The notes under the pieces: generated by a model
Seen by the model: the letters and a program-made list of their open reading frames with translations, nothing else
Databases searched by the model: none
What the model was told of the DNA's origin: nothing
Position numbers and translations under genes: made by a program
DNA from: a virus
IMG/VR virus record: IMGVR_UViG_3300035523_000117
Location: 1-64,000 of that record
Direction: 5' to 3' (one strand)
Length of the DNA stretch: 64,000 bases
In this document: in pieces, positions 9,806 through 41,202 of the stretch
Position numbering within the stretch: the first letter of the stretch is position 1
Layout of the letters: every line of letters begins with the position of its first letter

Positions 9806-10909
9806 GTGTCCTTCAGGGACGAGGCCCGTCGTGCGCTCGAGTCGAGCGCAGAGCGCAGCAAGCAGAACCAGCACCTCACCCTCCTCCAGGAGCGCCGCCT
9901 CGAGCTGCGCGGAGTCGTCGGAGTCGACGGCCTGCTCGCGCTGCTGCGCGATCCCGCGGCCGACAGGGACCGCAAGGACGCGGTGCTGCTCGCCCTCCTG
10001 GAGGAGCGCAAGGGCGGCGCCTTCTCCCTCCTGCTGGCCGCCCTGTTCCCGGCGCTCGATCGGATCTACCGGGCGCGCCTGCGCCGCGGGGAGGACTTCG
10101 ACGACGTCTGGGGCCAGGTCGTCGGGGCCTTCGCCGAGGCGGTGGAGCGGTACCCGACGGCCCGTCGCCGCAGCCGCGTCGCCGCGAACCTCGAGGGCGA
10201 CACGATGGCGTCGCTGCGGCGGGCCCGTTGCCGTGACCTGCGTGCTGGCGTCGCCCAGGAGCAGCTCGCGGCGGCGGTCGAGCCGTTCGTCGAGGAGGTG
10301 GGCTCCGTCGACCCACACGCGGACGAGCCCCGGCTCACCCTGGCCGACCTCGCCAGCGTGGCGCAGCGGACCTTCGACGACGACGAGCTGAAGGCCGCAG
10401 CCAAGTCGGTCACCCCGATGCTCCGGAAGGCGCAGGTCGTCCAGGCCGACCGCGCGCTCGTCCTCGGCGTCGGCCTGTTCGACCGAAAGCTCGGCGAGCT
10501 CGCCGGGGAACTCGGGCTCAGCCGCGAGGCCGCGAAGAAAAGGCACCAGCGCGCAATCGCCCGGATTCGTGCCGCTTTTCGCCTCGCCGACGACGGAATC
10601 CAGGTCGTCCCGATGTCCCCAAAACGACTGAACGAGACGTTTTCCTGCAGAGGCGAGAACAGCCGGCATGTCGTCGGCCAAGCGTCTCGGGGAGAAGCCG
10701 ATGACCAGCAGGCGCAAGGCGTCGAGCCCGAAGAAGGGCGCGCAGAACCACTGGAAGCAGCTCCACGGGCAGTTCATGCGGTCCAGCCGGACCCCGCAGG
10801 CGCTCCGCGAGTTCGCGATCCTGCAGACGACCATCCCGCAGCTGCAGCGCTTCGCGGACCCGGCGGCGGTCCTCACGTACCTGGAGGACCGGACCGGCAA
10901 CCTCAATGA
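9806..10909 (+). CDS. Sigma-like phage protein 1, probably extended by a lost stop
   Basis: The GTG at 9806 follows CCGGAGG. The helical protein has a region-2-like middle (FDDVWGQVVGAFAEAVERYP) and a C-terminal region-4-like HTH (LAGELGLSREAAKKRHQRA). It is a paralogue of the next gene. The recognisable part ends at about 10,590. The frame then runs another 300 bases out of register with, and overlapping, the next gene. In the +1 frame a TGA at 10,629-10,631 would give a 275-residue protein of the expected size. A single extra base (for example in the AAAA run at 10,621) would explain the extension. Confidence 0.6.
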   Translation: MSFRDEARRALESSAERSKQNQHLTLLQERRLELRGVVGVDGLLALLRDPAADRDRKDAVLLALLEERKGGAFSLLLAALFPALDRIYRARLRRGEDFDDVWGQVVGAFAEAVERYPTARRRSRVAANLEGDTMASLRRARCRDLRAGVAQEQLAAAVEPFVEEVGSVDPHADEPRLTLADLASVAQRTFDDDELKAAAKSVTPMLRKAQVVQADRALVLGVGLFDRKLGELAGELGLSREAAKKRHQRAIARIRAAFRLADDGIQVVPMSPKRLNETFSCRGENSRHVVGQASRGEADDQQAQGVEPEEGRAEPLEAAPRAVHAVQPDPAGAPRVRDPADDHPAAAALRGPGGGPHVPGGPDRQPQ

Positions 10910-11474
10910 GAAGGACGCCCTCTACGCGGCGCTCGTGGGGATCGTCCAGGCCCGCGGCGCAGGGTGCGGCACTGCCTCGACACTCCTGTGGCTCGGCCTC
11001 TGGCCGGTGCTCACCGCGCTCTACCGCTCGAAGGAGAAGGACTTCGAAAACGAGCCCGAGGAGCTGGTTTCCGAGATCAGCGAGTGGTTCCTGACGGCGA
11101 TCTCGCGGGCGGACCTGAGCCGCATCTCCCGCGTCGCGGCGACGCTGGCCCGGAACACCGAGCGCAACCTCGGCGAGCAGCTGCGGTGGGACCGCAAGGC
11201 GACGGGGCCCCTGGTCTTCGAGGCCGACCTGTCGAAGGTGCCGAACCGGGTGGAGCCCCCGGCGACCGGGCTCTCGGTGGCGGCGGAGGTGGAGGCGGTC
11301 CACCGGTGGGTCGAGCGGGTCCTCGGCGAGGAGGACGCGAACCTGGTCGTGGGCGTGGCGGTCTTCGGCGAGAGCCAGGCCGGCATGGGCGACAAGCTCG
11401 GCCTCTCGCACGACCTCGCGCAGCGTCGCTACCACCGGGCGATCGGGAAGCTCCGCGCCGAAATTCAGCAGTGA
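10701..11474 (+). CDS. Sigma-like phage protein 2
   Basis: A 257-residue paralogue of the preceding protein, with ENEPEELVSEISEWFLTAIS in the middle and a C-terminal HTH (GMGDKLGLSHDLAQRRYHRA). The ATG at 10,701 has GGGGAGA upstream; an in-frame ATG at 10,668 is an alternative. Proteins of this type in phages are usually called sigma-like or hypothetical. It could direct RNA polymerase to the repeated elements at 8176, 11,487 and 19,558, but nothing in the sequence proves it. Confidence 0.65.
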   Translation: MTSRRKASSPKKGAQNHWKQLHGQFMRSSRTPQALREFAILQTTIPQLQRFADPAAVLTYLEDRTGNLNEKDALYAALVGIVQARGAGCGTASTLLWLGLWPVLTALYRSKEKDFENEPEELVSEISEWFLTAISRADLSRISRVAATLARNTERNLGEQLRWDRKATGPLVFEADLSKVPNRVEPPATGLSVAAEVEAVHRWVERVLGEEDANLVVGVAVFGESQAGMGDKLGLSHDLAQRRYHRAIGKLRAEIQQ

Positions 11475-11486
11475 CGCGTCGATTTC

Positions 11487-11527
11487 TTGTCCGGTTTTGC
11501 GCGGAAACACCGCGTTCTTTCTATGGG
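11487..11527 (+). promoter_or_regulatory. Phage regulatory element, copy B
   Basis: TTGTCCGGTTT, then AAACACCGCGTTCTTTCTAT and GGG, 51 bases before the ATG of the ssDNA-binding-like gene. It matches copies A and C. Confidence 0.7.
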
Positions 11528-11578
11528 CCCTCAAATTCCGATTCACCCCAGCCGCAGCACCCCGAAAGGAGCAACACC

Positions 11579-12277: not shown

Positions 12278-12293
12278 CCGCTCGTCCCCGTGA

Positions 12294-12371: not shown

Positions 12372-12638
12372 ATGGCTTTGCCCGAAATCGCCTGCGCGAA
12401 GTACGTGCCCGGAGAGGGACGGCGCTGCGTCCACTACGCCGACGGCCCGTGCCTGCGCCCCGACGAGTTCATGTGCGTCGTGTGGCTGCGGGCCAACGGG
12501 TACGGGCGCGACCCGCTCGTCGCGGCGCGCGAGCACCTGACGCAGCTGCGCGCCACCTCGCCCCCGCCCGCTCCACCGCAGCCCGCCTCCGTCCAGCTCG
12601 GCCTGTTCCCCCGCCTTCGTCCTCCGAGGAAGCCATGA
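12372..12638 (+). CDS. Small four-cysteine phage protein
   Basis: An 88-residue protein with Cys at ACAKY, RRCVHY, GPCLRPD and FMCVVW, a metal-site pattern seen in small proteins of phage recombination operons. The C-terminal half is Pro-rich. It overlaps the nuclease start by 4 bases. Its function is unknown. Confidence 0.6.
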   Translation: MALPEIACAKYVPGEGRRCVHYADGPCLRPDEFMCVVWLRANGYGRDPLVAAREHLTQLRATSPPPAPPQPASVQLGLFPRLRPPRKP

Positions 12639-13826
12639 CGTTCAAGAACGAGTACCTCTCCGCCTCCCGCCTGAAGCGCTTCGCGCAGTGCCCGAAGAGC
12701 TTCGAGCTGCACTACATCCGCGGCGAGCCCGCGGTGTTCAACCCCGCGACCACCTTCGGCTCGGTCCTCCACGCGGCGCTCGAGCGCGTCTACCGGCTGA
12801 TCGTCGAGCTGAAGCTCGTCGGCCGGTTCCCGGAGGACCGGCTCATCGCGTTCTTCGAGGAGGAGTGGGCGAAGGCCAGCCTCTTCGACTTCGCGAGCTT
12901 CCAGGAGGGCGTGAAGATCCTGCGGGACTACGCCTGCGAGCACGCCCTGGTCGACTACACGACCGTCCTCGGCATCGAGCAGGAGTTCCGGATCGAGGTC
13001 GACGGGTTCGAGGTGCGCGGGTTCATCGACCGCGCCGACCGACTCGACGACGAGACGGTCCTCATCACCGACTACAAGTCCAACCGGGCGATCTTCACCC
13101 GCGACGAGGTCGACCAGGACCTGCAGCTGTCGATCTACGCGATGGCCGCCCGCGTCCTGTGGCCCTGGGCCAAGAAGGTTCGTCTCGGGTTCTACCTGCT
13201 GCGCCACGGCTTCCGGATGGAGACCGCGCGCAGCGACGAGGACCTGGCCGCCGCCCGCCGCTACGTCGCCATGCTCGGCCGCGCCAGCGAGCAGGCCGGC
13301 GAGTACGAGGCGCGGCTCAACGAGAACTGCACCTGGTGCGACCACCGGGCGCAGTGGCCCCGTCTACCACCGGGCCCTGCTCGGGAAGGTCGAGAACCTC
13401 TGCCAAGACGAGAAGGACCTCGAGGCCGTGGCCCGCGAGCGTGAGGAGGTCGCCAAGCTCGCCAAGGCGCTCTACGCCCGCAAGGAGGCGCTGGAGCGGA
13501 TCCTCAAGAAGCAGATCGAGAACGTCGGGGAGCTGAAGCTCGGCGGGATGGTCTACGGGCTCAGCAAGACCACCCAGGTCAGCTACCCCGCGGACGCCAC
13601 CCTGCTGGTCCTCAACGAGGTGCTCGGCGCGTCGATGGAGGACCTCGCGCGGCGCCTGCTCGTCGTCGACAAGGCCGGTGTCGAGCGCCTGCTGAAGGAG
13701 GCCGCCAAGGACCTCCTCCCGGCCGACGTGAAGATGCTCAAGGCCCGCCTCGACGCTGTCGCCGAGAAGTCCTACTCGCCGCGCTTCGCCGCCCACGCCG
13801 AGCGCAAGACGGAGGTGTCGCCGTGA
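12635..13826 (+). pseudogene. RecB/Cas4-type PD-(D/E)XK nuclease, +1 frameshifted
   Basis: The first frame (12,635-13,444) shows SASRLKRFAQCPKSFELHYI, a His in FGSVLHAALE, the catalytic core GFIDRADRL ... LITDYKSNR and QLSIYAMAAR. This is the RecB-family fold seen in Cas4 and phage exonucleases. It then reaches NCTWCDHRAQ, after which the family Cys-Pro should follow. One extra base at 13,355-13,357 (TGGCCCC for TGCCCC) throws it out of frame. In the +1 frame the protein continues CPVYHRALLGKVENLC and runs to 13,826, with a helical C-terminal domain. Removing one base gives a single 396-residue enzyme. It is coupled to its neighbours by 4-base overlaps on both sides. Confidence 0.75.
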
Positions 13827-14859: not shown

Positions 14860-16245
14860 ATGTCCGGGACGACCAGCCCCACGGGCTGCGCGAGAGGTGT
14901 GTGCCTCCGCCCCTACCAGCTGGATGCCATCGACCGCGTTCGCGCCCGGGTTCGAGCGGGGTCGCGTCGCGTCCTGCTCGTCCTGGCCACGGGCGGCGGA
15001 AAAACCCTGATCGCCAGCCACATCATCGCGAGCGCCGTCGCACGCGGCTCCCGCGTGCTCTTCCTCGCCCACCGCCGCGAGCTGGTGAACCAGGCCTACC
15101 GGAAGCTCCTCGATCAGGGGCTCCCCGAGGACCATGTCGGCGTACTCATGGCCTCGGACCCCCGGCGTCGGCCAGCGGCAGCCGTCCAGGTCGCGAGCAT
15201 CGACACCCTCCGCAACCGCGCCAAGCCCCCCGCGGAGCTGGTCTTCGTCGACGAGGCCCACCGCGCATGCGCGAAGTCGTACCGGAGGATCGCGGCGGAG
15301 TACCCGGCCGCGGTCCACCTGGGGCTCACAGCGACTCCCTATCGCGCCGACGGGCAGGGCCTCAAAGACGCCTACGACGAACTGGTCGTGGTGGCCTCCC
15401 CCCGCGAGCTCATCGCCCAGGGCTTCCTCGTCGAGCCACGGGTCTTCACGGTCCCGACCGAGGCTCTGCCCGACCTGTCCGACGTCCGGGTGACGGGTGG
15501 CGACTATGACGAGGCGCAACTCGCCGACGCCGTGGACCGCCAGGCGCTCGTCGGGAACATCGTCGACCACTGGCTCCAGCACGCCTCCGGCCTGCGCACG
15601 GTGGTCTTCGCTGTGTCCATCGCGCACTCCCAGCACATCGCCGAGCGGTTCCGGCAGGCGGGCGTCGCGGCCGAGCACCTTGACGGAACGACGCCCCTCC
15701 CCGAGCGGGACGCAATCCTTGCTCGCCTCGAGGCGGGGACCACGCAGGTCGTCTCAAATTGCTCCTGCCTGGCGGAAGGCTGGGACCAGCCCTCGGTGAA
15801 GTGCGCGGTCCTGGCGCGCCCGACGAAGGCGCCCGGTCTCTACCTTCAGCAGGCCGGGCGCATCCTGCGGCCGTGGGAGGGCGTGCGCGCCATCATCCTC
15901 GACCACGGGGGCTGCGCCCTGGAGCACGGGCTGCCCCAGGACGATCGGGAGTTCTCGCTCGAGGGCGCCAAGAAGAAGCGGCTGAAGAAGGCGCTGGTGG
16001 TTCCGACCACCAAGCTCTGCCCCAGCTGCTTCGCGGTCCTGCCGCCGGGGACGAACCTCTGCCCCGAGTGCGGCGCCGAACTCCCGGAGACCGCTGTTCC
16101 CCACGAGGCGGAAGGGCAGCTGGTCGAGGTCTCCGCCGCGCCGACCCAGATCACCGTCCACGGGGTGCAAACCGTCCTGCGCGAGGCACTGCGCCACGGC
16201 GGGACGCTCACCTGGGACCAGTTCGAGCGTCGAGCCCGGCCATGA
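14860..16245 (+). CDS. SF2 (DEAD/DEAH-type) helicase with C-terminal zinc ribbon
   Basis: The 461-residue protein has the SF2 motifs in order: LRPYQLDAIDRVR (Q-like), ATGGGKT (Walker A), VFVDEAHRA (DEAH), LGLTATPYR, VVFAVSIAHS, and QQAGRILRPW (motif VI). After the helicase core a zinc ribbon (CPSC ... CPEC, about residues 388-408) and a short helical tail follow. The family includes restriction-type and phage replication helicases. It precedes and overlaps the primase-helicase gene by 4 bases, so replication fork remodelling is the likely role. The ATG has CAGGAGA upstream. Confidence 0.85.
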   Translation: MSGTTSPTGCARGVCLRPYQLDAIDRVRARVRAGSRRVLLVLATGGGKTLIASHIIASAVARGSRVLFLAHRRELVNQAYRKLLDQGLPEDHVGVLMASDPRRRPAAAVQVASIDTLRNRAKPPAELVFVDEAHRACAKSYRRIAAEYPAAVHLGLTATPYRADGQGLKDAYDELVVVASPRELIAQGFLVEPRVFTVPTEALPDLSDVRVTGGDYDEAQLADAVDRQALVGNIVDHWLQHASGLRTVVFAVSIAHSQHIAERFRQAGVAAEHLDGTTPLPERDAILARLEAGTTQVVSNCSCLAEGWDQPSVKCAVLARPTKAPGLYLQQAGRILRPWEGVRAIILDHGGCALEHGLPQDDREFSLEGAKKKRLKKALVVPTTKLCPSCFAVLPPGTNLCPECGAELPETAVPHEAEGQLVEVSAAPTQITVHGVQTVLREALRHGGTLTWDQFERRARP

Positions 16246-19200
16246 CGCTCGTCGCCGTCGCGCCCAACAAGTTTGCGAAGGGCTTCGACGGCACTGGCCG
16301 GAAGGTCCCGCTTGCCTACGAGGTGCTCGATCTCCACACCGCGCTGACGAAGGTCTACTCGACCGACGCCCACCTGGTCGCCTACGTGGTCGAGGGCGCG
16401 GTCCGCCAGCACCGGATCAAGAAGACAGGGCTTCCTCACTTCGAGGGACAGGTGGAGGTCGGCGTCTTCTTCTGCGACGTCGACAACCCCCAGCACAGCA
16501 ACTGGAATCGCGAGCTGCTCGACGCGGCCCTCGCGCAGTACGACTCGCTCGGGGTGCTCCAGACCGCGGGCATCTACCACACCGAGCACGGCCGCCGGAT
16601 CGTCCAGCCCATCGAGCAGCCCATCCCCGCGCGGGAGGTCGAGCCGTACCTGAAGCGCTGGCTGCTCCAGCTCGAGCGGGCGGGCATCCCCGTCGACTGG
16701 GCCTGCCGCGATTGGACTCGGCACTTCCGGCTCCCGAACGTCCGCAGAGATGGCTTCCCCTACCGCAGCCCCCTCATGCGCTTGGAGCGGATGCGGCCGA
16801 TCTCGCTGGAGCCCATCGCCCTCCCTGCGCCCGTCCCGTCTGGCGGGCCCGCCACGGTGCCCAGGCCCATCGCCCCGGTCGACTGGAGCACGGAGCTGCC
16901 CGAGGCCTGGCGGCCCCGGATCCCGCCCATCGCGGAGGCGGTGCGGCGCGTCTCCAGCGAGTGGCACACCCTCTTCATGGCCCTGGCGGGCGCGCTCCTC
17001 TCGCGCCGGGTGCCCCACGAGCACGTGCCGGCCATCTGCCGGGCAGTCTCGCTCGCCACCGGAGCAGACACCCGGACCGAGGACCGCGAGGCGGGTGCGC
17101 GCACGACCGTGGAGCGGCACCTCGCGGGCGTGCCCATCACGGGCTATGGCTACCTCGCCTCCAACTGGCCGACCGTCGCCTACGCCCTGGATGCGGCTCT
17201 GGCCACTGGGAACGAGGCCCGCCTGCGCGCCCAGGCTGCCGCGCCGCCTGCGACCCAGCCCCGCACGCTCCAGGAGACGACCGCTGCGTTGGAGGACGCG
17301 ATTCGCCGCGCGCCTGACGGCCTGACGCTCATCAGCGCCGAGTGCGGCCTTGGGAAGACCGCGGCAGCGGTCCGCGTGGCGGCTGAGCGTGCTGCCAAGC
17401 CCTACGCCACGAAGGACGCCAAGGGAGAGCGGGCGCCGCCCCAGTCCAAGACAGCCATCTCCGTGGACAAGAACGCCCTGGCGATGCAGATCGCCGGCGA
17501 CCTCGCAGCCGCTGGCACCAAGGTGCGGCGCGTCTTCGGTCCGCTCTCGCTCATGAACCCGGACGGTACGCGCGTCTGCCGCTACTACGAGGTGGCGCAG
17601 CCGCTGGTCGAGGGCGGCCAAGCGATGCAGTGGGAGCTCTGCCGCGGGCGGGACAAAGACCCGTGCGAGCACTGCAAGACCTGCCCGGCGAAGGACGGCG
17701 CCGAGGGCCCCGACGACGCTCGCGTCACGGTCGGCCCCCACGCGCTCATCAACCAGCTCGACGCCGCCGCGGGCTCCACCGGGCTGCTGGTCATCGATGA
17801 GCCGCAGGCGCTCCTCGAGACGGTCATGCTCAAGCTCGAGGACATCGACACCGCTCGGCGGGAGCTGGGCGCTTTCGACGCTCGGTTTGAGGCGGCGATG
17901 CGCCCGGCGCTCACGGCCATCCGCGAGTGGGTCGGCTCGCTGGGCACGCCCGAGGAGGTAACAAACATCCCAGACGCGCTCCGCGCCTGCGCCCACGTCA
18001 TCGACCCCACCGTCCTCGACCAGGCCTGCATCGCGACGAGCACCAACGGCGACGCCGTCGACTGCGTCAGGGCTGCCAACACGCCAGAGCGCGAGGGCCG
18101 ACCGCCCCCCTCTCCTCCATACCGAGGTCCAGGGAGCCCGCCGGGACGTCGACCGAGCAAGGGAGCTCGGCACCGCCTCCAAGGTGCTCGGTTGCGTATA
18201 TCGAGCGGCGACAACGAAGGTGGAGGCAGCCGCCCGCATCGAGGAGACGGTGACGTTCGGGCGGGTGCTCTTGCTCACCTTCGCCCGCGAGCGCCTCTCC
18301 GATGCCCTCAAGCGTGAGGGCGCCGTGGTGGTCACCGACGCCAATGCGGACCTGCACCTGCCCCTGATGGCCAAGGTCGTCGGCTACACGCCCCCGCTGC
18401 ACCAGTTCGCCGCGGTGGACGGCGCGCCCATCGCCAGGACCCTCCTGCGCTGCGGAACGGCCACGCGCAAGGGTTGGCTCCGCGGAGGCAAGCTCGTGCT
18501 CGACGGCAGCCTTGTCACTGCGGTGCGTGCCGCGTTGGAGTGGGCGCGCGAGGACGCCAATGCCCGGAAGATCGGGCTGATCACCATGCACGTGGTCGAG
18601 CTGGCCATCGCGGCTGCTCTTCGACCCAAGGACGAGACAGTCGAGAAGGCCTGGAAGAGCGCGGGCCAGTCGCAGGAGGCGCTCGACCAGGCCCGCTCGC
18701 TGCTCGGCCCGCTTCTGCGTGGGTGGCCAGGCGAGATCCGCCTCGCTCACTACGGCGCGGTCCGCGGACTCAACGACATGGCGGACGTCGACTGCCTGAT
18801 CACCCTCGGCGACCCCTGGCCCAACCTCGGCGAGGTCCGCAACGACGTGGCCTTCCTGAAGCTCGAGGAGAGCTGGGAGAAGCGGCTGGAGGCCCTCTGC
18901 CGCGCCGAGTTGCAGCAGGCGCACGGACGCCTCAGGACCGTCCACCGCACGCGCCCAGGTCGAGCCCTGCACATCGGCAACGTTTTGCCCGGCGGAACGG
19001 GCTGGTCCGGAGCCGTCGAGGTCCGCAGGCTCGACGGCGGTAGGCCGCAGACCCACTCGACGACTGACCCGGCCGAGGTGCAGGCGCTGGTCGAGGCAGC
19101 AGGCGGGACGTCGAGCGCCGCCGACCAGGTGGGCTGCTCGATGCGCAGCCTCCAGCTCTACCAAGCGGGTCGGCGGCGAATGCCGCCTGCGCTGGAGCAG

Positions 19201-19257
19201 CGCCTTCGAGGCCTCGTCAGTCGCGCTCAGGATCGCGCTTGCCCGACGCATCATTAA
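16242..19257 (+). pseudogene. AEP-type primase fused to a helicase, +1 frameshifted
   Basis: The N-terminal part looks like an archaeo-eukaryotic primase: VGVFFCDVDNP (DxD metal motif), a His in GIYHTEHGRR, and WTRHFRLPNVRR. From about residue 340 a P-loop ATPase follows: ISAECGLGKTAAAVRVA (Walker A), a four-Cys insertion (CEHCKTCPA), and GLLVIDEPQALLE (Walker B). The frame breaks in a run of six C at 18,105-18,110. Removing one C continues as PLLHTEVQGARRDVDRAREL and on to 19,257 (about 1,004 residues), with a late helicase motif region and a C-terminal HTH (TSSAADQVGCSMRSLQLYQ). This is a replication initiator-like fusion. The broken frame would leave a 692-residue product. Confidence 0.7.
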
Positions 19258-20237: not shown

Positions 20238-20437
20238 GTAAGAGCACTTACGCACTGGAATTCCCCAGAAATATCAGGCCGGGAGCCCTCGCCAGACTGC
20301 GCCCCTGCCTGTGCGCGCCGAAAATTTCGCGCGAGTTACTTACGCGTAGCGCCGGGAATTCTCCGAATTAGGCAGTCGTCGCGCTCGGATGCGGGAAATC
20401 GACCATTGGTAAGTCGCAGGTAAGTCCCAATTACTTA
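20238..20437. promoter_or_regulatory. TAAGT/ACTTA repeat array before the methyltransferase
   Basis: The AT-richer leader of the methyltransferase gene holds GTAAG-4-CTTAC (20,238-20,251), TTACTTAC (20,336), GTAAGT (20,409), GTAAGT (20,420) and TTACTTA (20,431). The last three are spaced by exactly 11 bases, one helical turn. This looks like an operator for an oligomeric DNA-binding protein controlling the downstream gene. Confidence 0.5.
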
Positions 20438-21784: not shown

Positions 21785-22453
21785 ATGACCAAGGCCAACC
21801 ACACGAACGGCGAGCTGAAGCCGGCGGCTGCGGCGCTGCGGGCGCTGACCACCTGGCTCGAGGCGAACGGGCTCAGGCGGGCGGCACTCGCTCCGGTGCT
21901 CAAGACACACCAGGTGCAGCTGCACCGGGTCTTCGCCGGCACGGGCTACCTCTCGGCCACGCAGCGGCGGGCGATCGAGGAGTTCACGGCCGGCGCGGTG
22001 ACGGCAGCGATGCTCGAGGGCAAGGCGGCGCCTCCGGCCCGCATCGAGCCCAAGCCCCGGCAGGCGCCCGAGGCCGTTGTCGCCGCCCCCGCGGTGGCGG
22101 TGGCGCCTGTCGGGGCGAAGCCGCAGACGACTGAGGAGGCCGAGCGGGTCGTCGACGAGCTCGCGGCGAGGGCGATGCCAGCCGCCTTCAAGCTCGTGGT
22201 CCAGCAGATGGTCCAGGCGAAGAGCGAGTCGGAGCGACGGCGCTGCGCCGAAATCCTCATCGAGCAATTCCGGGGAAAGGCGAAGCAGTACGAGCGCCGG
22301 GACAAGTCCGAGCCACCGGCCACCGATACCGAGCTGATCGAGGTCTTCCAGCGCATCGAGGCGAACCTTGGAGGGAGCAATGCCACTCGACCTGTCCCGC
22401 CTGTCCCCGGTGGAGCGCCTGGTGATGCAGCTGGGGGCGCGGAGCCTGCATGA
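21785..22453 (+). CDS. Probable small terminase-like protein
   Basis: A 222-residue protein with an N-terminal HTH-like region (LTTWLEANGLRRAALAPVLK), an Ala/Pro-rich linker and a helical C-terminus (AERVVDELAARAMPAAFKLV). It starts 4 bases after the methyltransferase and overlaps the terminase large subunit start by 74 bases. Position and architecture fit a DNA-recognising small terminase, but no signature is decisive. Confidence 0.5.
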   Translation: MTKANHTNGELKPAAAALRALTTWLEANGLRRAALAPVLKTHQVQLHRVFAGTGYLSATQRRAIEEFTAGAVTAAMLEGKAAPPARIEPKPRQAPEAVVAAPAVAVAPVGAKPQTTEEAERVVDELAARAMPAAFKLVVQQMVQAKSESERRRCAEILIEQFRGKAKQYERRDKSEPPATDTELIEVFQRIEANLGGSNATRPVPPVPGGAPGDAAGGAEPA

Positions 22454-23778
22454 CGCGCTGACGCCGAAGCAGCGCCAGGCGCTGCGGTACTGCTGGCCGC
22501 TCTGGGAGCGCCCCAGCGTTCGGTTGCCCCCGCCCGCGCTGCCGAAGAGGGAGCCCGGCTTTGGGATCTGGACAGGCCAGCAGGAGCCGCCCGGCGGCTG
22601 GCTCTACTGGATCTTCTGCGGCGGCCGCGGAGTCGGGAAGTCGCGGCGGCTCACCCAGTTCGTGCTCGACCGGGCGCGCCGCTTCCCCGGCTGCCGCATC
22701 GCGGTGGTCGCGCGCACCGCGGGCTCGCTCTGGGGCGAGGTGGTCGAGGGGCAGTCGGGACTGCTGGCCTGCGCGCCGCCCTGGTTCACGCCGAAGGTCC
22801 AGACCAACAAGCGGCGCCTCGTCTTCCCCAACGGGTCGAAGGCCATCCTCTTCACCGGCGAGGAGCCCGACAACCTGCGCGGGCCCAACAACCACTTCGG
22901 CGCCGTCGACGAGCTGGCGGCGATGCCCTACGCCGAGGAGGTCTGGCGCCAGCTGCAGATGACCATGCGCTCGGGTCTGCACCCCCAGACCATGGTCGCG
23001 ACCACGCCGCGCCCGTTGAAGCTGCTCATCCGCCTGACCCAGGACGAGCGCTCGGCGGTGACGATCGGCGCGAGCCACGAGAACCGGGCGAACGTCGCGC
23101 AGAGCTGGCTCGACGAGAACCTCAAGGTCTACGAGGGCACGGCGTTCGGGCGGCAGGAGATCGGCGGCGAGATCCTCGAGGAGATGCCGGGCGCGCTCTT
23201 CAAGCGCGAGTGGTTCGAGCGCTCGTGGTGCCCGGACGCGCAGCGGGACTCGCCGTACCGCCGCATTGGCATCGGGGTCGACCCGGCGGAGACCAGCGGG
23301 GAGAAGGCCGACAATTGGGGGATCATCGCGGCGGGTCTGCGCGAGGACGGGATCATCGAGGTCCTCGAGGACGCCACCGTGAACGCCACGCCGGACGTCG
23401 CGGCGAAGGCGGCGGTCGCCCTCGTACTTTAAGCACGGTGCCAGCTTCATGGTCGCCGACGTCGGCCGCAGCGGGCAGATGGTCGACTCGATGATGAGGC
23501 TTGTCGACCCGCGCGTGCGCGTCCTCAGGAAGGGTGGCAACAAGGGCAAGCGCGCGTGGGCGGAGAGCGTCGCAGTCCTCTTCAGCAAGCACCTGGTCTT
23601 CAACGCGCCCGGCCTCGGGAAGCTCGAGGACGAGTGCTGCCAGTGGACCGACGACGTGAAGAGCTGGAGCCCCGACCGCATGGACGCGCTCGCGTACGTG
23701 ATCAGCGAGCTCGCGTTCAAGTCGCCTCTCGCCCAGGCCGGGCTGAACCGCGACCCCGTTGCCCCGAGGAGGATGTGA
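22380..23778 (+). pseudogene. terL: Terminase large subunit, +1 frameshifted
   Basis: The packaging motor starts at ATG 22,380 after GGAGGG. The ATPase part has Walker A (FCGGRGVGKSRRLTQF, about residue 80), FGAVDELAAM (Walker B) and ATTPRPLKLL (coupling). The nuclease part begins IGVDPAETSG. An extra G at 23,424 (CTC-G-TAC) leads to a stop at 23,432. In the +1 frame the protein continues YFKHGASFMVADVGRSGQM and SPDRMDALAYVISELAF to 23,778, the expected RNase H-like end. The restored length is about 465 residues. The break removes half the nuclease domain, so headful cutting should fail unless the frame is restored. Confidence 0.85.
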
Positions 23779-24950: not shown

Positions 24951-24962
24951 TGCGAGACACCG

Positions 24963-26332: not shown

Positions 26333-27569
26333 GAAGACCCCCAGGGCCCCGCGCATCTTCGCCCGCGTGGAGGAGAGGAACGGCCAGAAGCGAGGTGCAC
26401 TCCACCTCTATGACGCGGTGGGCGGCTGGGACGGCATCCGCGCCAAGCACGTCGTCGAGAAGCTCGAGGCCCTCAAGGTCGAGGGCGCCGAGCACCTGGA
26501 CGTCCACATCAACTCGCCGGGGGGCGACGTGTTCGAGGGGATGGCCATCCACACGGCGATCGCCTCCTGGCCCAACGGCGAGAAGCGCGTCCACGTCGAC
26601 GGGCTGGCCGCGAGCATCGCCTCGATCGTCGCCATGGCCGGCGACGAGATCGAGATCAGCCCGACTGCGATGGTCATGGTCCACGAGCCCAAGGGCTTCG
26701 CCATGGGCGCCGCCGCCGACCTCCGCAAGATGGCCGGTCGGCTCGACTCCATCCGCGACGTCATTTGCGACGTCTACGCCGCTCGGACCGGGCTCGCGAA
26801 GGCAGAGGTCGAGAAGCTCGTCGCCGCGGAGACGTGGATGTCGGCGAGCGACGCGGTAGCGAAGGGCTTCGCGGACAAGGTCGCCGAGCGCGAGGACGGC
26901 GACGAGCCCGACGAGGACGACGACGAGGAGCGGGAGGAGGACGCGCTCGCCCGTGCGGTGGCCCTCTTCGAGCACGCCCCGCCCGACGTCGCCCGCCTGC
27001 TCGCGCTGCCGATCCCACGCGCCTCCGCCCGGAGGCCCAACCCGAAGGAGCCGCAGATGCCCGAGCCGATCGCTGTCGACACCAAGGCCTTCGAGGCCCG
27101 CTTCGCCGCCCTGACGGAGCGTGCCGAAGCTGCCGAGAAGGTCCACGGCGAGCTGCTCGCCATCACCGGGAAGGCCACGGCGGGCGAGGCCCTGGCGCTG
27201 GTCGCCGGGCTGAAGGAGAAGGCGGCAAAGGCCGACGAGCTCGCCGGCCAGCTCGCGAAGTTCGAGGCGGAGAAGCGCGCGGGCCAGGTCGCGGCACTGC
27301 TCGACGCCGCGTCGCGCGAGGGGCGCCTCACCCCGGCGAAGCGCGAGGAGCTGATGAAGGCCGACGCCCCGGCGTTCGCTCGCGACCCGGGGCAGCTCAA
27401 GGTCTTCCTCGACTGCCTCCAGCCGGTGGTCGTGCCCGCGGCGGCGCCGAAGCACGAGGAGCCGAAGAGCGCTCCGGAGGCCTCGCTCACCGAGGACGAG
27501 AAGCACTTCGCCGAGCAGCTCAAGCTCGACCCCGCCAAGGTCGCCGCCTTCAAGAACAAGAAGCAGTAG
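26325..27569 (+). CDS. ClpP-like prohead protease fused to scaffold
   Basis: The first 190 residues form an S14 (ClpP-like) protease: HINSPGGDVFEGMAI, the serine in VDGLAASIASIVAMAG and the His in MVMVHEP. It would process the prohead. After an acidic linker (DEPDEDDDEE) comes a helical Ala/Glu-rich scaffold region with an internal ATG at 27,058 (MPEPIAVDTKAF), which could also be used alone, as in lambda C/Nu3. The C-terminal 150 residues are scaffold-like coiled coil. At 414 residues it is complete and uninterrupted. Confidence 0.85.
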   Translation: MPEKTPRAPRIFARVEERNGQKRGALHLYDAVGGWDGIRAKHVVEKLEALKVEGAEHLDVHINSPGGDVFEGMAIHTAIASWPNGEKRVHVDGLAASIASIVAMAGDEIEISPTAMVMVHEPKGFAMGAAADLRKMAGRLDSIRDVICDVYAARTGLAKAEVEKLVAAETWMSASDAVAKGFADKVAEREDGDEPDEDDDEEREEDALARAVALFEHAPPDVARLLALPIPRASARRPNPKEPQMPEPIAVDTKAFEARFAALTERAEAAEKVHGELLAITGKATAGEALALVAGLKEKAAKADELAGQLAKFEAEKRAGQVAALLDAASREGRLTPAKREELMKADAPAFARDPGQLKVFLDCLQPVVVPAAAPKHEEPKSAPEASLTEDEKHFAEQLKLDPAKVAAFKNKKQ

Positions 27570-27631: not shown

Positions 27632-28069
27632 ATGACCGCTCTCTCGAGCTACCGCGACACCAAGCGGATGGGCGACGACGTCATCCCCACCGTCTTCGAC
27701 CTGCTGGTCGCGGACAACGTCCACCTCTTCAAGGGCGCGATCGTCGGCCTGGCCGGCGGCTACGCCGCGCCGGCGGGGGCCACCTGCTCCAAGGTCGTCG
27801 GCATCAGCCGAGTCCGAGGTGGACAACACGCAGCCCGGCCACGCGGTCGGGGCGAAGCGCGTTCCGGGTGCGCCAGGGCACGTTCAAGGTCGCCAACAGC
27901 GCCGCCGCGGACGCGCTGGCGATCGCCGACGTCGGGAACCTCTGCTACGCGGCGGACGACCAGACCGTCGCCAAGACCGCGGGGGCCAACCTGCCCGGTC
28001 GCGGGCACGGTCCTCGGCGTCGACCCGGACGGCGTGTGGGTCCAGATGAACCTCGACGGCCGCAGCTGA
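27632..28069 (+). pseudogene. Head decoration-like protein with three +1 frameshifts
   Basis: It starts MTALSSYRDTKRMGDDVIPT after CAGGAGA and should be a small capsid protein lying between scaffold and major head genes. One extra base occurs at 27,809 (AGC-C-GAG), one at 27,864 (GTT-C-CGG) and one at 27,997 (CCC-G-GTC). Together they return the frame to that of the start, so the gene is open throughout but its middle 63 codons read out of register. The restored reading includes SESEVDNTQPGHAVGAKR, VRQGTFKVANSAAADALAIA and VAGTVLGVDPDGVWVQMNL, about 144 residues. Confidence 0.7.
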
Positions 28070-28126: not shown

Positions 28127-29070
28127 ATGGGCGCACTCACCCCCGCGAAGTACGAGGCCGCGACGCTGACCTTCTCGATGCTGTTCCGAGAGGTCCTGCG
28201 CGACACGCCGACCTACTACCAGCAGATCGCGACCGAGATTCCGAGCACCACCCGCGAGATGCGGCACGCCTGGCTGGACCGCATCCCGCAGATGCGCGAG
28301 TGGCTGGGCGAACGGGTGGTCAACAACCTCGCCGTCCGGCTGCAGAGCATCGAGAACCGGCTCTTCGAGGACACGGTCGGGGTGAAGCGCACCGACATCG
28401 AGGACGACCTCATCGGCGCGTATCGCCCGGTGATCGAGGAGCTGGCGCAGCAGACCAAAGGCCTGGCCGGACAAGCTGATCATCGACGCAATGATCGCGG
28501 GGACGAGCGCCCTGTCCTACGACGGCCAGCACTTCTTCGACTCGAACCACCCGCAGAACATGGACGACCCGGCGAGCGCGCTGCAGTCGAACCTGCTCGC
28601 GGACCACGACCTCGATGTCGACGCGCTCGCGGACGCCATCCAGGTGATTGATGAGCTTCATCGGCGCGGACGGCCGGCCGCTGGAAATCATCCCGGACCT
28701 GCTCGTCGTGCCCCCGCAGATGAAGTTCCGCGCTGCGCGGCTGCTGCAGGCGGAGCTCATCGGCCGGGACATCGCCCTGGCGGCCGGGAACGGCGCCGCC
28801 GCCGACACCAACGTCCTCAAGGGGTCTCTCGACCTGCTGGTGCTCCCGCGCCTCGCCAGCGAGCCGAAGAGCTACTACGTCCTCTGCACCAAGCGGGCGA
28901 TCAAGCCGTTCATCTTCCAGAACCGCGAGGCGCCGGAGTTCACGGCGCTCACCAAGCCCGACGACGAGAACGTCTTCCGGCGCGACGAGTTCCTCTACGG
29001 CGTCCGGGCCCGCGGCGCGGCCGGGTACGGACCGTGGTTCCTCGCCATCAAGTGCGTCAGCAACACGTAG
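28127..29070 (+). pseudogene. Mu gpT-like major head protein with two +1 frameshifts
   Basis: The family pattern is clear: GALTPAKYEAATLTFSMLFR, IPSTTREMRHAWLDRIPQMR, IAGTSALSYDGQHFFDSNHP, then LEIIPDLLVVPPQMKFRAAR and FRRDEFLYGVRARGAAGYGP. An extra G at 28,469 (GCC-G-GAC) and an extra base at 28,647 (GTG-A-TTG, or ATTG for ATG) divide it into three frames. The restored length is about 313 residues, the usual size. As the capsid building block is broken twice, no virion could form without restoration of the frame. Confidence 0.85.
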
Positions 29071-31270: not shown

Positions 31271-32971
31271 GTGCTTCCCAAGATCACCCAGGTCATCCAG
31301 GACGGCTCGCTCGGCATCGTCCCGCCCTCGCCGGCGGGCGTCGTCGCGAAGGTCGGCGTCTGCAGCTCGGGCTCGGCGAACACGGTCCAGGCGTTCTCTG
31401 GCCCAAGCGTGAAGGTCATCAAGGACGCGCTCGGGACCGGTCCCCTCGCCGAGGCGGCGGCGCACTCGCTCGAGATCGCGGGCGGGCCGGTGATGACCGT
31501 GCCGGTCAGTCCGAGCGTGCCGGGCGCCGCTGGGACGGTCACGCACGTTGGCGCGGGAACGTCGGTCCTCTCCGTCAGCGGAGAGCCGAAGGATGCCTAT
31601 GAGGTGGAGCTCCGGATCACCCGGAAGGCGTCCGGCCTCGCGGCAGCGAGTGCGGCATTCGTCTTCTCGCTCGATGGCGGAGACACGTTCTCGCCGGAGA
31701 TCGCAGTGCCGGTGAGCGGGATCTACGTCCTGCCGAACACCGGGCTGACCATCACCTTTACGGACGGCTCGTTCGTGAAGGACGCCTCCTACACCTTCGA
31801 CTGTCTCGCGCCGAGCTACACCACCACCGACCTGGCGACGACCATCGACGCGCTGTTGGCAGACCCGAGGAAGTTCGGCTGTCTGCACGTCGTGGGCGCT
31901 CCCGCGCCGTCGGCCACGAAGGTGACCGGGACCGGCACGAGCCCGGCGATGAAGCTCACCGGCTCGCCCGCAGCCTGGATCGACGGAGTGGTGGTCATCA
32001 CCGCTGCGGGCGTGCTCGGGGCGGGCAAGTTCAAGGTGAGCCTCGACGGCGGGGCGAACTTCGGGTCCGAGAAGGTGCTGGCCGCTGCGTACGCCGTCCC
32101 GGACACGGGACTGACCCTCAACTTCCCGGCCGGCACCTACAACCAGGGCGACGCCTTCACCTTCAACACCTACGCCTCCATCCCGGCGTTCTTCGCCACG
32201 GTGGACGCGAAGATGTCCGCGGCCGAGAACATCTACAAGTACGCCTTCGCGGTGCTCGAGGCGCCGGACGCGCCCGACGCCATCCTGCTCAAGGCCACCG
32301 CCAACCTCGCGAGCACGCGAGTCATGTTCGCGGGCGGGTATTGCGAGCTTACCTCGAGCCTCTCGATCGTCGGGGGCAAGACCTACAAGCGCAGCGACGC
32401 CTGGCCGATCACCGCACGCATCGCCGAGGCGCCCATCCACGAGGACCTCGGCCGCTACCGGAGCGGCTCGCTCCCGGGCGTGGTGGCGCTGTACCGCGAC
32501 GAGTACGTGACCCCGGGCCTGGCCTCCGCCCGCTTCGAAACCCTGCGGACCATCCCGGACGCGCCCGGGTACTACATCGCGAGCGACACGGGCGGGAACA
32601 TGATGGCGCCGCTCGGGAGCGACTACGCCTTCGTCCAGAATCGTCGCGTGATGGACGAGGCCTGCCGGGTCAACCGGGTGGCGATGCTGCGCTACCTCAA
32701 CGAAGACCTCCTGGTCGATCCCAAGACGGGATTCATCCTCGAGACTGAGGCGCGGCGCATCGAGGCGGACGTCAACGCCCAGCTCGAGGCCGCGCTCGTC
32801 TTCGGCGCCTCGCGCCACGCCTCGGCAGTGCAGACCCGGGTGAAGCGCGACGAGAACATCCTCTCGACGCACAACCTGACGACCAGCGTCAGCGTCACCC
32901 CGAAGTCCTACGCGAAGACGATCACCACCACGATCGGCTTCCGCAACCCGGCCATCGCCAAGGCGGCGTAG
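31271..32971 (+). CDS. Contractile tail sheath protein (DUF2586-like) with two inserted beta domains
   Basis: The 566-residue protein begins LPKITQVIQDGSLGIVPPSP and ends with sheath features: GRYRSGSLPGVVALYRDEYV, DYAFVQNRRVMDEACRVNR and ITTTIGFRNPAIAKA. Between residues about 85-178 and 215-300 are two copies of a beta module with SLDGG, PNTGLT or PDTGLT, and a terminal YTF/FTF strand. The same module occurs twice in the baseplate protein at 39,489. The reading frame is intact despite broken genes on both sides. Confidence 0.8.
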   Translation: MLPKITQVIQDGSLGIVPPSPAGVVAKVGVCSSGSANTVQAFSGPSVKVIKDALGTGPLAEAAAHSLEIAGGPVMTVPVSPSVPGAAGTVTHVGAGTSVLSVSGEPKDAYEVELRITRKASGLAAASAAFVFSLDGGDTFSPEIAVPVSGIYVLPNTGLTITFTDGSFVKDASYTFDCLAPSYTTTDLATTIDALLADPRKFGCLHVVGAPAPSATKVTGTGTSPAMKLTGSPAAWIDGVVVITAAGVLGAGKFKVSLDGGANFGSEKVLAAAYAVPDTGLTLNFPAGTYNQGDAFTFNTYASIPAFFATVDAKMSAAENIYKYAFAVLEAPDAPDAILLKATANLASTRVMFAGGYCELTSSLSIVGGKTYKRSDAWPITARIAEAPIHEDLGRYRSGSLPGVVALYRDEYVTPGLASARFETLRTIPDAPGYYIASDTGGNMMAPLGSDYAFVQNRRVMDEACRVNRVAMLRYLNEDLLVDPKTGFILETEARRIEADVNAQLEAALVFGASRHASAVQTRVKRDENILSTHNLTTSVSVTPKSYAKTITTTIGFRNPAIAKAA

Positions 32972-35465: not shown

Positions 35466-37346
35466 ATGTCCACCAAGAAGCTCGAGTGGCTCTTTGGCCT
35501 CGACGACAAGATGTCCGGGCCGGCGTCGGTCGCGGAGAAGAAGCTCGAGCTGCTCGAGCGGCGCATCAAGTCCGTGGCCAAGGCCGAGGCGGAGATGTCC
35601 GGCCCGAAGAAGGAGCGCCTGACCTTCGCCCGCCTCAACCTCGAGATCCAGCGGGACCAGCTTCGCAGCGCGGGCAAGCACGACGGCGAGCCGGAGGGCT
35701 TCCGCTCCCACGCGATGGTGAGAAGGTGAAAGGCCCTGGTCGACGGAACAAAGAAGCTCGTCGCAGGAGCGACGTCCTGGGTGGGGCTCCTCGACCGTGG
35801 CCTGGGCATCGTCGAGAAGGTGGCCGGCGCAGCGATCGCCATCGGCGAGGCCTTCTTCCACGTCGCCGCGCAAGTCGGGCACCTCATCTACCGGTTCGGC
35901 GAGCTCGGCGTGGAGGCGGCCGCGGCCAAGGAGAACGCCGTCCTCACCTTCAAGGCGCTCCTCGGGAGCGCCGAGGCTGCGGAGGCGATGGTGGACGCCC
36001 TCGAACGCCTCTCCTACGTGTCGCCGTTCACCTCGGATTCAAGAGGTGGGGCTCGGGCGAAAGCTCATCGCCGGAGGCTTCGGCGCAGAGCAAGTGCCCA
36101 CCCTCCTGCGCGCCCTCGGCGACGCTGCAGCTGCCACCGGCGCTGGCTTCGAGAAGGCCGACGAGGCGGTGGGCGCCCTGAGGCGCATCCGTGCGGAGGG
36201 TTCCCTCAGCACCAAGACGCTTCGCGCGCTCAGCGCCGCGGGCGTGCCAACGGGCGCGGTCTACGAGCGGCTGGGCGAAGTCTTCGGCGTCACCGCGCAG
36301 CAGGCGCGCGAGCTCGTGAAGGCGGGCAAGGTCGACTCGTCCAACGCGCTCTTCGCGATCGTCGGCGCTGTGAAGGACAAGCGGTCAGGAGGAGCGCTGG
36401 GCGACGCGGCGCAGCGGTACGCGACCGAGACGCTCTCGGGCCTCAAGAAGAGCATCGCGGACAAGAAGGAGGAGCTGTTCGCCGACATCTTCAAGTCGGT
36501 GGGCTTCGGGTCGTTCAAGAGCTTCCTGAAGAACGTCAGCGAGGCGCTCGACCCCGAGAACCCCATCGGCAAGCGCATCCGCGAGCGCGTGACGAGCACC
36601 TTCAACCGCATCTTCACCGCCCTTTTCGGCCCGCTCACTGGCGACCAGGGGCTGGAGCGCATCGAGAAGGTCGTCAACAAGGTGCTCTTCGCCATCGACG
36701 CGCTGGTGGCGGCCGGGGCGGGTCCTCTGGAACGTGTTCGAGGGCTTCAGCACCGGGGTCCTTCGCGCCTTCGGGCTCGACGTCGACCGCCTCCTCGGCG
36801 CCGACGGCGCGCTCGACCCAGCGAACATCGAGGCGATCGTCGGCGCCGCGCACGACCTGGGCGAACAGTTCGGCTACATCGCCACCAAGGTCGAGCTTGC
36901 GATGGACTGGGTCCTTGGCTTTTCGCGGGCAATCGACGGTGCGATGGACGTCGGTGGTGCCCTCGGGAAGCTCGTGGGATGGGGAAGCCGGATGGTGGGG
37001 CTACCAAGCGAGGACGAGGACGACGCCCTCCGGATGCGGACCTACAAGGACTGGAAGCTCTACCAGGCGCGGACAGGCGAGCAGATCCCGCTCGGCGACT
37101 TCATCCCACGGCTTCGCGAGCGGGAAGATCCGGATGCCAGTGCCGCAGCCGGCTGTGAGAGCCCAGGACCTGGCCAAAGGAACGCGCGCTCGGGTCTTCA
37201 GCCCCACGGTGGAGAACCACATCAACGTCCAGGGCAGCGGACCGGTGGACCCCGAGGCGATCGGCGAGGCCGCGGGCGACGCGACGCTGGACTCGCTCAG
37301 CACCTGGGAAGACACCTCGATGGCCATGGGCGCCACCGACGGGTAG
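35466..37346 (+). pseudogene. Tape measure protein with one stop and three +1 frameshifts
   Basis: It starts STKKLEWLFGLDDKMSGPAS, the normal opening of tape measure proteins, and continues through helical and glycine-rich segments (LIAGGFGAEQVPTLLRALGD, FKSFLKNVSEALDPENPIGK, VENHINVQGSGPVDPEAI). A TGA at 35,727-35,729 interrupts it after HAMVRR. It then needs an extra T removed at 36,039 (GAT-T-CAA), an extra G at 36,721 (GCG-G-GTC) and an extra C at 37,106 (ATC-C-CAC). The three insertions together restore the starting frame. The restored protein is about 625 residues. Tape measure length sets tail length. Confidence 0.75.
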
Positions 37347-37938: not shown

Positions 37939-39122
37939 ATGTCGCTCGTCACCGTGAACGGCACGCCCTGCGTGCGCGCCACCATCCGCATCCCGCGCCT
38001 CGGCGTATGGATTGCGGACCTCGCCGTGGATGTGGCGAAGACCATCTCCGGGCCCGTGACCGTCTCGGTCTGCGACGGGGCGCTGGAGTTGAAGGGCCGG
38101 GCGGCGCGCACGGGCGTCTTCAAGGACACGGCGGTCCTGCGCGTGCTCGGCGGTGCGGGAGGCCTGGCCTCCGAGGTGCCGGCCAAGTTCTACCGGCGCT
38201 GCCCGGCGAAGGTGCCGCTGCAGGACATCCTGCAGGCTGCCGGCGAGAAGCTCTCCACCCAGGCCGACCAGAGCCTGCTCAACCAGCAGCTCGTCGCGTG
38301 GACCCTGCTCAGGCAGAAGGCGGGCGAGGCACTGCGGACGCTCGCCGACGAGCTGGGCGCGGTGTGGCGGGTGCTGCCGGACGGGTACGATCTGGCTCGG
38401 CCAGGAGAGCTGGCCGGCGGCCCACATGCCGGACGTCGACCTGCTCTCGGAGGACCCGCGCGCGCACACCGCGGTCATCGGCACCGACTCGCCGACGCTC
38501 CTGCCCGGCACGATGTTCCTCGGCCGTCGCGTCTCGATGGTCGAGCACCAGGTGCAGCCCGAGAGCGTCCGCACGATGGTGTGGTTCGAGGGGGAGAGCG
38601 GCACCGGCGAGGGCGATCGCCTCACGCGGGCGGTCGGCGCGATAGTCCGCCACCTCACCGCGCACCTCGACTACTTCGCGCTCTACCCCGCGAAGCTCGT
38701 GAGCCAGAACTCGGACGGGACGCTCGAGCTGAAACCCGACGACAGCCGGCTGCCCGGGCTGTCGAAGGTTCCCATCCGGTACGGCATCCCGGGCGTGACC
38801 GTGAAGGTCGCCTCGGGGGGCGCGGGTGCTGCTGGGCTTCGAGGGCGGCGATCCCCAGGTGCCAGTCGCGACGCTCTGGGAGAAAGGCTCGGTCACGGAG
38901 ATGACGATCGATGCCTCGACGGACATCAAGGTGAACGGCGGGAGCAAGGCCGTCGCACGCAAGGGCGACTCGGTCCACGCGGGCTTCCTCTCCGGGAAGG
39001 CCGAGAAGATTCCGGTCGTCTTCACGTACACCCCCTACGACCCCAACAGTCCTCCCGATCCCACAGCCACCCCGTTGAGCGGTGGGCAGATCACCTCGGG
39101 GGCAGAGAAGTTCCATGCGTGA
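37939..39122 (+). pseudogene. Baseplate hub/spike-like tail protein with two +1 frameshifts
   Basis: The first frame (SLVTVNGTPCVRATIRIPRL to RVLPDGY) resembles the start of gpD-like hub proteins. An extra G at 38,389 (TAC-G-ATC) shifts it; the next frame runs IWLGQESWPAAHMPDVDLLS to GIPGVTVKVASG. A second extra G in a run of six at 38,815-38,820 shifts it to ARVLLGFEGGDPQVPVATLW, which has the strand pattern of the gpV-like spike OB domain. The whole, about 394 residues, looks like a hub-spike fusion at the tail tip. Confidence 0.7.
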
Positions 39123-39492
39123 CCCTCCAGACTTCGGGACCGACGTCTCGACGTTCCCCGATCTCGATGACGCCTTCGCGCCGCTCAGCGGCATCGTGGT
39201 GCTCGCACAGTCGGTCGCGCGCTCGCTCGAGGACGCAGGCCGCGGCGTCGACCTCCGCCAGTGGCTCAACGAGAGCCTCGAGGACGCCGACGTCTTCCAT
39301 CTGCAGCAGACGATCGAGGCGCAGTGCCTCGCCGATGAGCGGGTCCAGGGCGTGTCGGTTTCGGTGATGCAGCCCTCGCTCTACGAGCTGCGCATCGCCA
39401 TCGACGTCGAGCCTGCCCAGCAGGGCCCCTTCCGTCTGGTCCTGAAGGTCACCTCCCTCACCGTCGAAGTGCTCTCACTCGAGGCCGCATGA
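39115..39492 (+). CDS. Mu gp46-like baseplate wedge protein
   Basis: A 125-residue protein (RQWLNESLEDADVFHLQQTI, VMQPSLYELRIAIDVEPAQQ) in the position of gp46/gpW-type wedge proteins, between hub and baseplate J. It overlaps both neighbours (8 bases before, 4 after), so it is translated with them. Confidence 0.6.
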   Translation: MRDPPDFGTDVSTFPDLDDAFAPLSGIVVLAQSVARSLEDAGRGVDLRQWLNESLEDADVFHLQQTIEAQCLADERVQGVSVSVMQPSLYELRIAIDVEPAQQGPFRLVLKVTSLTVEVLSLEAA

Positions 39493-41202
39493 CCGTCTCG
39501 CTCTCCCAACTCCTTGTTGCCCGCTCTCCGGACGCGCTCCTGGCGCAGCTGGTCCAGGCGCTCAAGGGCGTCGGATTCGTGCGCCAGACAGGCACGGGCA
39601 CCGGACGGGTGGAGGCCACGGGAGTGGCGCAGGGCAACTTCGCGGTCGTCGTCGAGATCACTGCCACTGGTGAGCCCGGGAGCGCGCAGTACCGAGTTAG
39701 CCTCAACGGCGGCGCGCTCTGGTCGGCCCCAGCTCCGGTGCCGGCAGCGCCGGTCGGGCTGCAGGGCACAGGAGTGACCATCGCGTTCGTCGCCGGACCC
39801 GCCGGCGCGGGCGCCAGCTTCGTCGCGCTCGACCGGTTCGCCTTCTACGTCGCCACTCCGACCTTCGGGCAGACTGCGTGGCAGCCGTTCTCGTGGCAGC
39901 GCCGCATCCTCGAGCTGGAGGCTGAGGCAGGCGGCGACGTCGACGCATTGGTCTCGGGCATCGCTGCCGGGGGCTACCTCGACGAGGCATCCGCGGCGTG
40001 GCTCGACCTCTACTGCGACAACGTCTACGACGAGCGGCGCCACGAGGCTATCCAGGCGAAGGGCCTCTGCGTTCTCACTGACGCAGGGAACGGCGGCCCC
40101 TACTCCATCGCGGCGGGCCAGCTCTGGGTGGCGACCGGCGATGGCACGCTTCGGTTCGTGAACACCAACGCAGGCTCGCTACCCGAGGGCGGGTCCCTTG
40201 CGCTGGAGTTCGCCGCCGAGTCGCCGGGCGCAGCCTTCAACGTCGGCAACGGCGCCATCGCGCAACTCATCACGCCGTTGCCTGGGGTCACGGTCGCAAA
40301 CCCCTCGCGCGTGGGCGGCGTGGTCCCGAGCCGCACAGGCGCGCCGAGGGTGGTGGCGTTCGCGTCGGGCTCGCTCCAGGGCGACTACCGGGTGCGCCTC
40401 GAGGTGACGACCAGCGGCGACCTGGGCGTGGCCGTGTTCCGGTACTCGCTCGACGGCGGGGCGAAGTGGACCGCCAGCGCGCAGCTCGTCCCTGCGAGCG
40501 GGCAGTATGTCCTCGGCACCACCGGGCTCTCGCTCAACTTCGCGGCGGGGGCCTACAAGGCGGGCGACCTCTACGACTTCGAGGCGACCGTCTCGTGGCT
40601 CTCCCAGGCGGGAGTTGACCGGGAGACCGACGAAGCGCTCCGGGTTGCGCTGCCGAAAGAAGTGGGCGAGCCTCGCCATCGGGCGCACCAACGCGGGCTT
40701 CGAGTACTGGGCGCTCGAGGCGAGCGACCAGGTCACGCGGGCCTTCGCGCGGCAGAGCGCCACGGTGCCGGGTCTGGTCGAACTCTTCCTCGCAGGGGCG
40801 AGCGGGGGCGTCTCCGCAGCCATCGTCGCAGTGGTCGACGCCTACGTGCAGCCCCGAGTTCCGCTCACGACCTCGTGCAAGACGGCGGCGGCGAGGACGG
40901 TGACCGTGAGCGTCGCAGGGACGGTCTTCGTGCGCTCCGGGCTCCGGACGCAGGCCCAGGCGGCGGCGGAGGCGGCACTGGTCGAGTACATCGCCGCCGT
41001 GCCCATCGGCGGGGAGAAGGTCGGCAGCGCGGGCGTCGTGTCCCGCGAGGTTCTGGCGGCCTGCATCGCGCGGGGTTCGCCAGCCCACCGGGTCGATGGC
41101 GTGGTCGACCTCTCGCTGACGACCCCTGCGGCCGACATGGCGCTCGGCGCGACCGAAGTCCCCATCCTCGACGTGAGCAACCTCACCTGGACCGAGGTGT
41201 GA
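39489..41202 (+). pseudogene. Baseplate J-like protein, +1 frameshifted
   Basis: The baseplate J pattern is DEASAAWLDLYCDNVYDERR, then DRETDEALR, and after the break RCRKKWASLAIGRTNAGFEY and VPLTTSCKTAAARTVTVSVA. An extra G at 40,644 (CGG-G-TTG) separates the halves. Residues about 35-122 and 280-372 are the same SLDGG beta module that is inserted in the sheath. Restored length is about 570 residues. It would anchor the contractile sheath. Confidence 0.8.

Follow-up and report, generated by a model that had tools for sequence, protein, structure and literature searches.

Why should nine conserved genes of a phage element, the functional core included, be thrown out of frame by extra bases, and do those bases belong to the phage or to the record in which it is stored? 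The DNA that we analysed, here called the window, comprises the first 64,000 of the 82,586 bases in an IMG/VR virus record. An earlier note, made from the letters of the window, had listed 16 sites at which one base too many breaks a gene, and had proposed insertion-type long-read errors, an insertion-biased mutator or a translational recoding as explanations. From comparisons with homologues we consider it probable that the extra bases are insertion-type consensus errors from long-read sequencing and assembly, not new biology.

Two related elements in one record

Element A, which carries a tail sheath, has recombinase and WYL genes at 5.8–9.3 kb (5769–9321, minus strand; unbroken, the recombinase being compared with that of locus L002), followed by replication genes up to ~21 kb and then by head and tail genes up to ~43 kb. 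Long genes of lower G+C flank it on the right (45932–61972), comprising genes for an RHS protein, ORFs of 848 aa, 1006 aa and 1260 aa (the last subtilase-like) and two short ones, all unbroken. The only Pfam match of the 1006-aa ORF (54542–57559) was to a Crp-like helix-turn-helix at residues 744–809, and it had no NCBIfam match. The G+C content of element A is ~66–72% and that of the flanks 57–67% (window 1–6000 and 46000–62000); a phage more G+C-rich than its surroundings is unusual, and this may bear on the host or on the assembly. A search for attachment-site repeats of element A found none, the longest common stretch being 11 bases. Near its right end lies a direct repeat of ~110 bases (79%; window 42973–43083 and 44121–44230), which sits upstream of two genes and also matches the relative G001 twice and element B once.

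The first part of element B, with a recombinase gene, occupies the right-hand end of the window (62596–64000, minus strand), and the element runs on into the remaining record (locus L012, 1–18586), which ends inside element B or just past it. Its recombinase, primase-like gene, terminase and capsid gene are held in common with element A at ~69–84% at the nucleotide level. A search of L012 8001–18586 revealed neither a portal gene nor a sheath or tape-measure gene, so element B may be what deletions left behind, or a satellite-like element lacking a tail. Of the head protease gene it retains only a small fragment, immediately before the capsid gene (window 27092–27206, L012 13740–13854); element B, unlike element A, has therefore undergone large deletions.

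A colinear relative, G001 (IMGVR_UViG_3300035523_000125), covers window 20.5–44.9 kb at ~79–88% nucleotide level, and a second, L015, has protein-level matches to many of the head and tail genes; in both, the genes are open at the places where those of the window are broken. Six protein queries and one 29-base exact pattern identified no relative closer than G001 in the viral contig collection, scans of which use short exact patterns and may miss relatives. The protease query had a single distant match among genome contigs, and the phage collection held no near DNA match for window 10,000–34,000. The best matches of the tail sheath among phage records were to Meiothermus, Thermus and Myxococcus phages (37–47% identity).

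Extra bases and their direction

Frame-aware protein-to-DNA alignment against intact homologues gave a +1 frame change at all 16 listed sites, which the earlier note had placed correctly to within ~12 bases. The aligner penalised gained and lost bases equally, and when tried on an ORF of the bacterial flank it correctly identified every one of 30 planted insertions and 30 planted deletions. All of the affected genes lie on the plus strand. In the replication region these are an exonuclease gene (12635–13805, PHROG 69), with one extra base near 13.36 kb (13,355–13,357), and a long replication gene (15759–19257), with one near 18.10 kb (18,105–18,110); we call the latter primase-like from its place, as neither it has a family match nor its L004 homologue a PHROG match. 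Among the head genes, the terminase large subunit gene (22368–23778; open in G001, L015 and element B) has one near 23.42 kb (23,424), the portal gene (24960–26284; open in G001 and L015) two near 25.12 and 25.68 kb (25,113; 25,684), a virion structural protein gene (27632–28066, PHROG 1731) three at 27.80–28.00 kb (27,809; 27,864; 27,997), and the major head protein gene (28127–29061, PHROG 371) two near 28.46 and 28.65 kb (28,469; 28,647). Among the tail genes, the tape-measure gene (35466–37343) has three near 36.04, 36.72 and 37.11 kb (36,039; 36,721; 37,106), a conserved tail-region gene with neither a family name nor a PHROG match (37939–39119) two near 38.39 and 38.82 kb (38,389; 38,819), and the baseplate wedge gene (39576–41199, PHROG 6) one near 40.65 kb (40,644). 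The genes for the head maturation protease (26325–27569, plus strand) and the 566-aa tail sheath (31271–32971, plus strand) are unbroken.

Fourteen of the 16 sites were tested against G001, and the two left-hand ones against L002 and L004 (exonuclease gene, ~13.36 kb), whose homologues align in two frames, and against L004 and element B (primase-like gene, ~18.1 kb). For the primase-like gene, L004 and element B each gave a single one-base insertion, L005 a pair of one-base loss and one-base gain plus a two-base loss, and L002 a two-base loss, which is the same frame change as +1. Raw totals against 24 relative ORFs were 16 one-base insertions, three two-base insertions and one one-base deletion; from the G001 comparison we accepted 15 one-base insertions (the 14 listed sites and 35,735) and one two-base insertion (35,718). 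The last two form a compensated +2/+1 pair 17 bases apart at 35.72–35.74 kb in the tape-measure gene, and since the zero frame stops at 35,729 the pair is a real local break. We rejected the frame changes at 23,817 and 24,113 (47% identity, with other calls there from element B), that at 44,953 (a query in a frame with stops), and the one-base loss at 43,069, which lies upstream of a conserved start codon at 43,089 after which there is no frame change. Also uncounted, as falling at alignment ends or junctions, were one-base losses at 10,750 and 20,163 and a two-base loss at 21,778.

No single-base loss was thus accepted inside a gene, in agreement with the earlier note's claim that no gene needs a lost base, and the count of insertions against deletions, which had been set as a test beforehand, came to 16 to 0 (chance P = 3e-5). 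The earlier list of sites was confirmed throughout; it had missed the tape-measure pair, the start of element B within the window, and the two +1 sites of that element beyond it. An independent six-frame ORF scan of the record found 17 clusters of frame changes. Fourteen were of +1 type, and the three of −1 type (21,800, 33,862 and 43,080) all lay at gene junctions; the +1 clusters at 38,005 and 38,318 found no support in the G001 alignment. In 38 relative loci (~368 kb, several of them near-duplicates) the same scan gave 10 clusters, three +1 and seven −1. No one-base insertion occurred in 54 alignments of relatives to G001 proteins (13,497 codons), in which the seven other events (two one-base losses, four two-base gains and one two-base loss) all lay within 43 residues of the query end.

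Selection on the broken genes

Aligned to G001, seven broken genes had no stops in 2,914 codons and a dN/dS of 0.136, and 12 unbroken genes had no stops in 2,731 codons and a dN/dS of 0.207. With L015 as outgroup, changes could be polarised in 12 of the 19 genes; residues specific to the window and to G001 numbered 63 and 39 in six broken genes and 42 and 22 in six unbroken ones (P = 0.74). Nor was the substitution rate raised beside the sites (0.120 near, 0.146 far). As the tested genes show no decay, either they were under selection until the extra bases appeared or the bases were never in the phage. The broken genes tested have neither the stops and relaxed selection nor the deletions equalling or outnumbering insertions that characterise decaying prophages. 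The extra bases are absent from the relatives tested and have had no effect on gene evolution, and both features are those of insertion-type consensus error.

The selection test left out a methylase-like ORF, the ORF after the terminase gene, g8886, g3328, g4380 and the first part of the 660-aa terminase ORF of G001. In these rows the window has stops at 20,410, 21,846, 21,999, 22,335, 29,089, 29,095 and 43,356, and several in g4380; most are outside the window's own genes or come from queries in a wrong or overlapping frame. The stop at 43,356 lies inside a weakly conserved gene (43,089–43,358) that has 89 codons, compared with 124 in G001, and whose similarity continues beyond the stop.

Sequence context and clustering of the sites

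Sixteen events could be placed for a test of base runs (14 sites of element A against G001 and the two of element B; 35,735 was unplaceable and the two left-hand sites fell outside the test). In 10 of the 16 the extra base is part of a run longer than one, uniform random insertion predicting a fraction of 0.44, and in one of the 16 it is part of a run of at least four, where uniform random insertion predicts 0.04 and random-base copying 0.13; at several sites alternative placements score nearly equally. On one or both strands, the 18 sites had neither a shared word at a fixed offset (P 0.66–0.98) nor a cut-site or PAM-like motif. Nor did local G+C give a signal (0.704 at the 16 sites of element A, 0.696 in the element). 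This lack of a motif is a feature of insertion-type consensus error, and the sites show no common slippery word or context of the kind expected of programmed +1 frameshifting. Five sites crowd into 782 tested bases that begin in the structural-protein gene and reach into the capsid gene, which exceeds chance (P = 0.014); clustering of three sites gave P = 0.09 and that of eight sites P = 0.055, and the overall spacing did not depart from chance (P = 0.32).

Uneven spread along the record

The 23,968 tested bases of element A contain 16 events, or 67 per 100 kb, excluding the +2/+1 pair. In the flanks and left end there were none in nine whole ORFs totalling 19,284 bp, as the earlier note had said of the recombinase and WYL genes and of the right flank; 12.9 would be expected at the rate of element A (P = 2.6e-6), although these ORFs were picked for being whole, which favours them, and few were compared with homologues. 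At that rate, luck could scarcely have kept flank ORFs of 848 to 1,606 codons whole. Element B had two events in 12,375 bp of ORFs, with 8.3 expected (P = 0.011), and both are +1 changes in its capsid gene (L012 14046–14980), the first agreed by seven relatives and the second called from G001 alone. The capsid sites fall at different residues in the two elements, 111 and 174 in A and 76 and 205 in B, and a one-base insertion is absent from all 22 capsid relatives examined (several of them near-duplicates, many aligned over ~200 of 313 residues). The events thus lack the equal spread over a contig expected of insertion-type consensus error; with none in the flanks against 12.9 expected, an even error rate fails and a local fault must be assumed.

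Origin of the extra bases

With other readings set aside on the evidence below, what is left is consensus error or a real and very recent burst of insertions. The long-read insertion error raised by the earlier note fits best, since the relatives lack the bases, the genes show no decay and the sites follow no placement rule. The errors would have been left in the stored contig in poorly covered or poorly polished stretches, and the phage in the sample probably had whole genes. Their restriction to the phage parts would have a natural cause, already proposed in the earlier note, in low coverage of a prophage carried by some cells; we infer both the sequencing platform and the low local coverage. 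That two elements in one record are affected, at different places, we count in favour of error. Against it we count the clean 19,284 bp, the low number in element B, the zero deletions, the involvement of both capsid genes, and the crowding of five sites into 782 bases, which even errors would not obviously give.

The strongest rival, though we think it unlikely, is that the bases are real and recent, the product of an insertion-type mutation burst that struck phage DNA in this cell line. The agent might be a copying enzyme prone to insertions, or error-prone repair of ends left by numerous cuts, and both elements would have been broken before other decay set in. Such a burst would account for insertions alone, for two phage elements affected with 19,284 bp of other ORFs spared, for broken genes free of older decay, and for the five-site cluster. 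It is opposed by the lack of a common cut-site or PAM-like motif and of a higher substitution rate near the sites, and no agent is known to us whose sole effect is the addition of single bases to phage DNA. The insertion-biased mutator of the earlier note stays a rival of this kind, but its slippage form is disfavoured: such mutators target long runs, and a single event in 16 lies in a run of at least four. On the broader question of whether the bases are real by way of the host, we give a slightly smaller chance to a host agent that adds single bases, silencing two related elements and sparing their neighbours, or to a host that reads through them.

Considerably less probable is the specific form of the latter in which the bases are tolerated, host ribosomes shifting +1 at the sites so that full-length phage proteins are made. 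The purifying selection that the proteins remain under, before as well as after the sites, and the lack of stops would suit such recoding, and frameshifting is named as a rescue of indels in the excerpted text of PMC5009743. The sites share no word or motif and are not kept among relatives, as those of programmed +1 frameshifting would be: capsid positions differ between A and B, and the capsid relatives have no such insertion. Neither the window nor L012 has a tRNA gene, and two shifts in one capsid gene would presumably lower its yield. The recoding suggested by the earlier note is accordingly disfavoured: the sites have no motif, their positions are not conserved, and the relatives tested do not carry them. 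Ordinary decay of a dead prophage, for which nine broken genes including the functional core and the early stop in the weakly conserved gene at 43,089 could speak, is the least credible reading, and we reject it for the broken genes on stops (none in the tested codons), selection (low dN/dS, no excess of window-specific changes) and indel direction (16 to 0). Decay would leave stops and relaxed residues and errors would not, which favours error over decay.

If the bases are an artefact, strongly one-sided indels can occur in the phage parts of a stored viral contig whose flanks appear clean, and broken genes in such records should therefore not be read as dead phages or as recoding. If they are real, an insertion-only agent aimed at phage DNA would have no known precedent, and either such an agent or a host that reads through the bases would represent a novel form of phage control or of decoding.

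Comparison with known systems

Like decaying prophages, element A has many core genes out of frame; unlike them, its broken genes are free of stops and of relaxed selection, and single-base losses were not accepted in any of them. In prokaryotes deletions are commoner than insertions, according to the excerpt of PMC9748784. Known programmed +1 sites are few and conserved and have a slippery context, whereas the sites in the window are many, scattered and dissimilar to each other. The one likeness to programmed +1 ribosomal frameshifting, as treated in the excerpt of PMC5009743, is that a shift in the same +1 direction would be needed.

A literature search on PacBio insertion bias itself gave no useful match. 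For long-read errors at large, the excerpts of PMC6487183 describe PacBio subreads as rich in insertion errors, indels as shortening gene calls, and polishing of MinION viral assemblies as removing up to 172,854 insertion and 12,674 deletion errors. In the part of PMC10926689 consulted, three PacBio-only phage assemblies had 25, 144 and 519 indels per 100 kb, and Illumina 15. Excerpts of PMC12007338 attribute 92% of PacBio CCS read errors to homopolymer indels and report that false deletions predominate in that study's own long-read assembly; here there are insertions only, and homopolymers are not favoured. The window also departs from long-read contig errors in being uneven along the record, in having no deletions and in its slight link to homopolymers. 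It resembles the errors of long-read viral contigs, as far as the excerpts of PMC6487183 and PMC10926689 describe them, in being insertion-rich with frames broken in conserved genes, and, on the presumed platform, the rate of 67 per 100 kb in element A lies within the PacBio-only range of 25–519 given in the latter excerpt.
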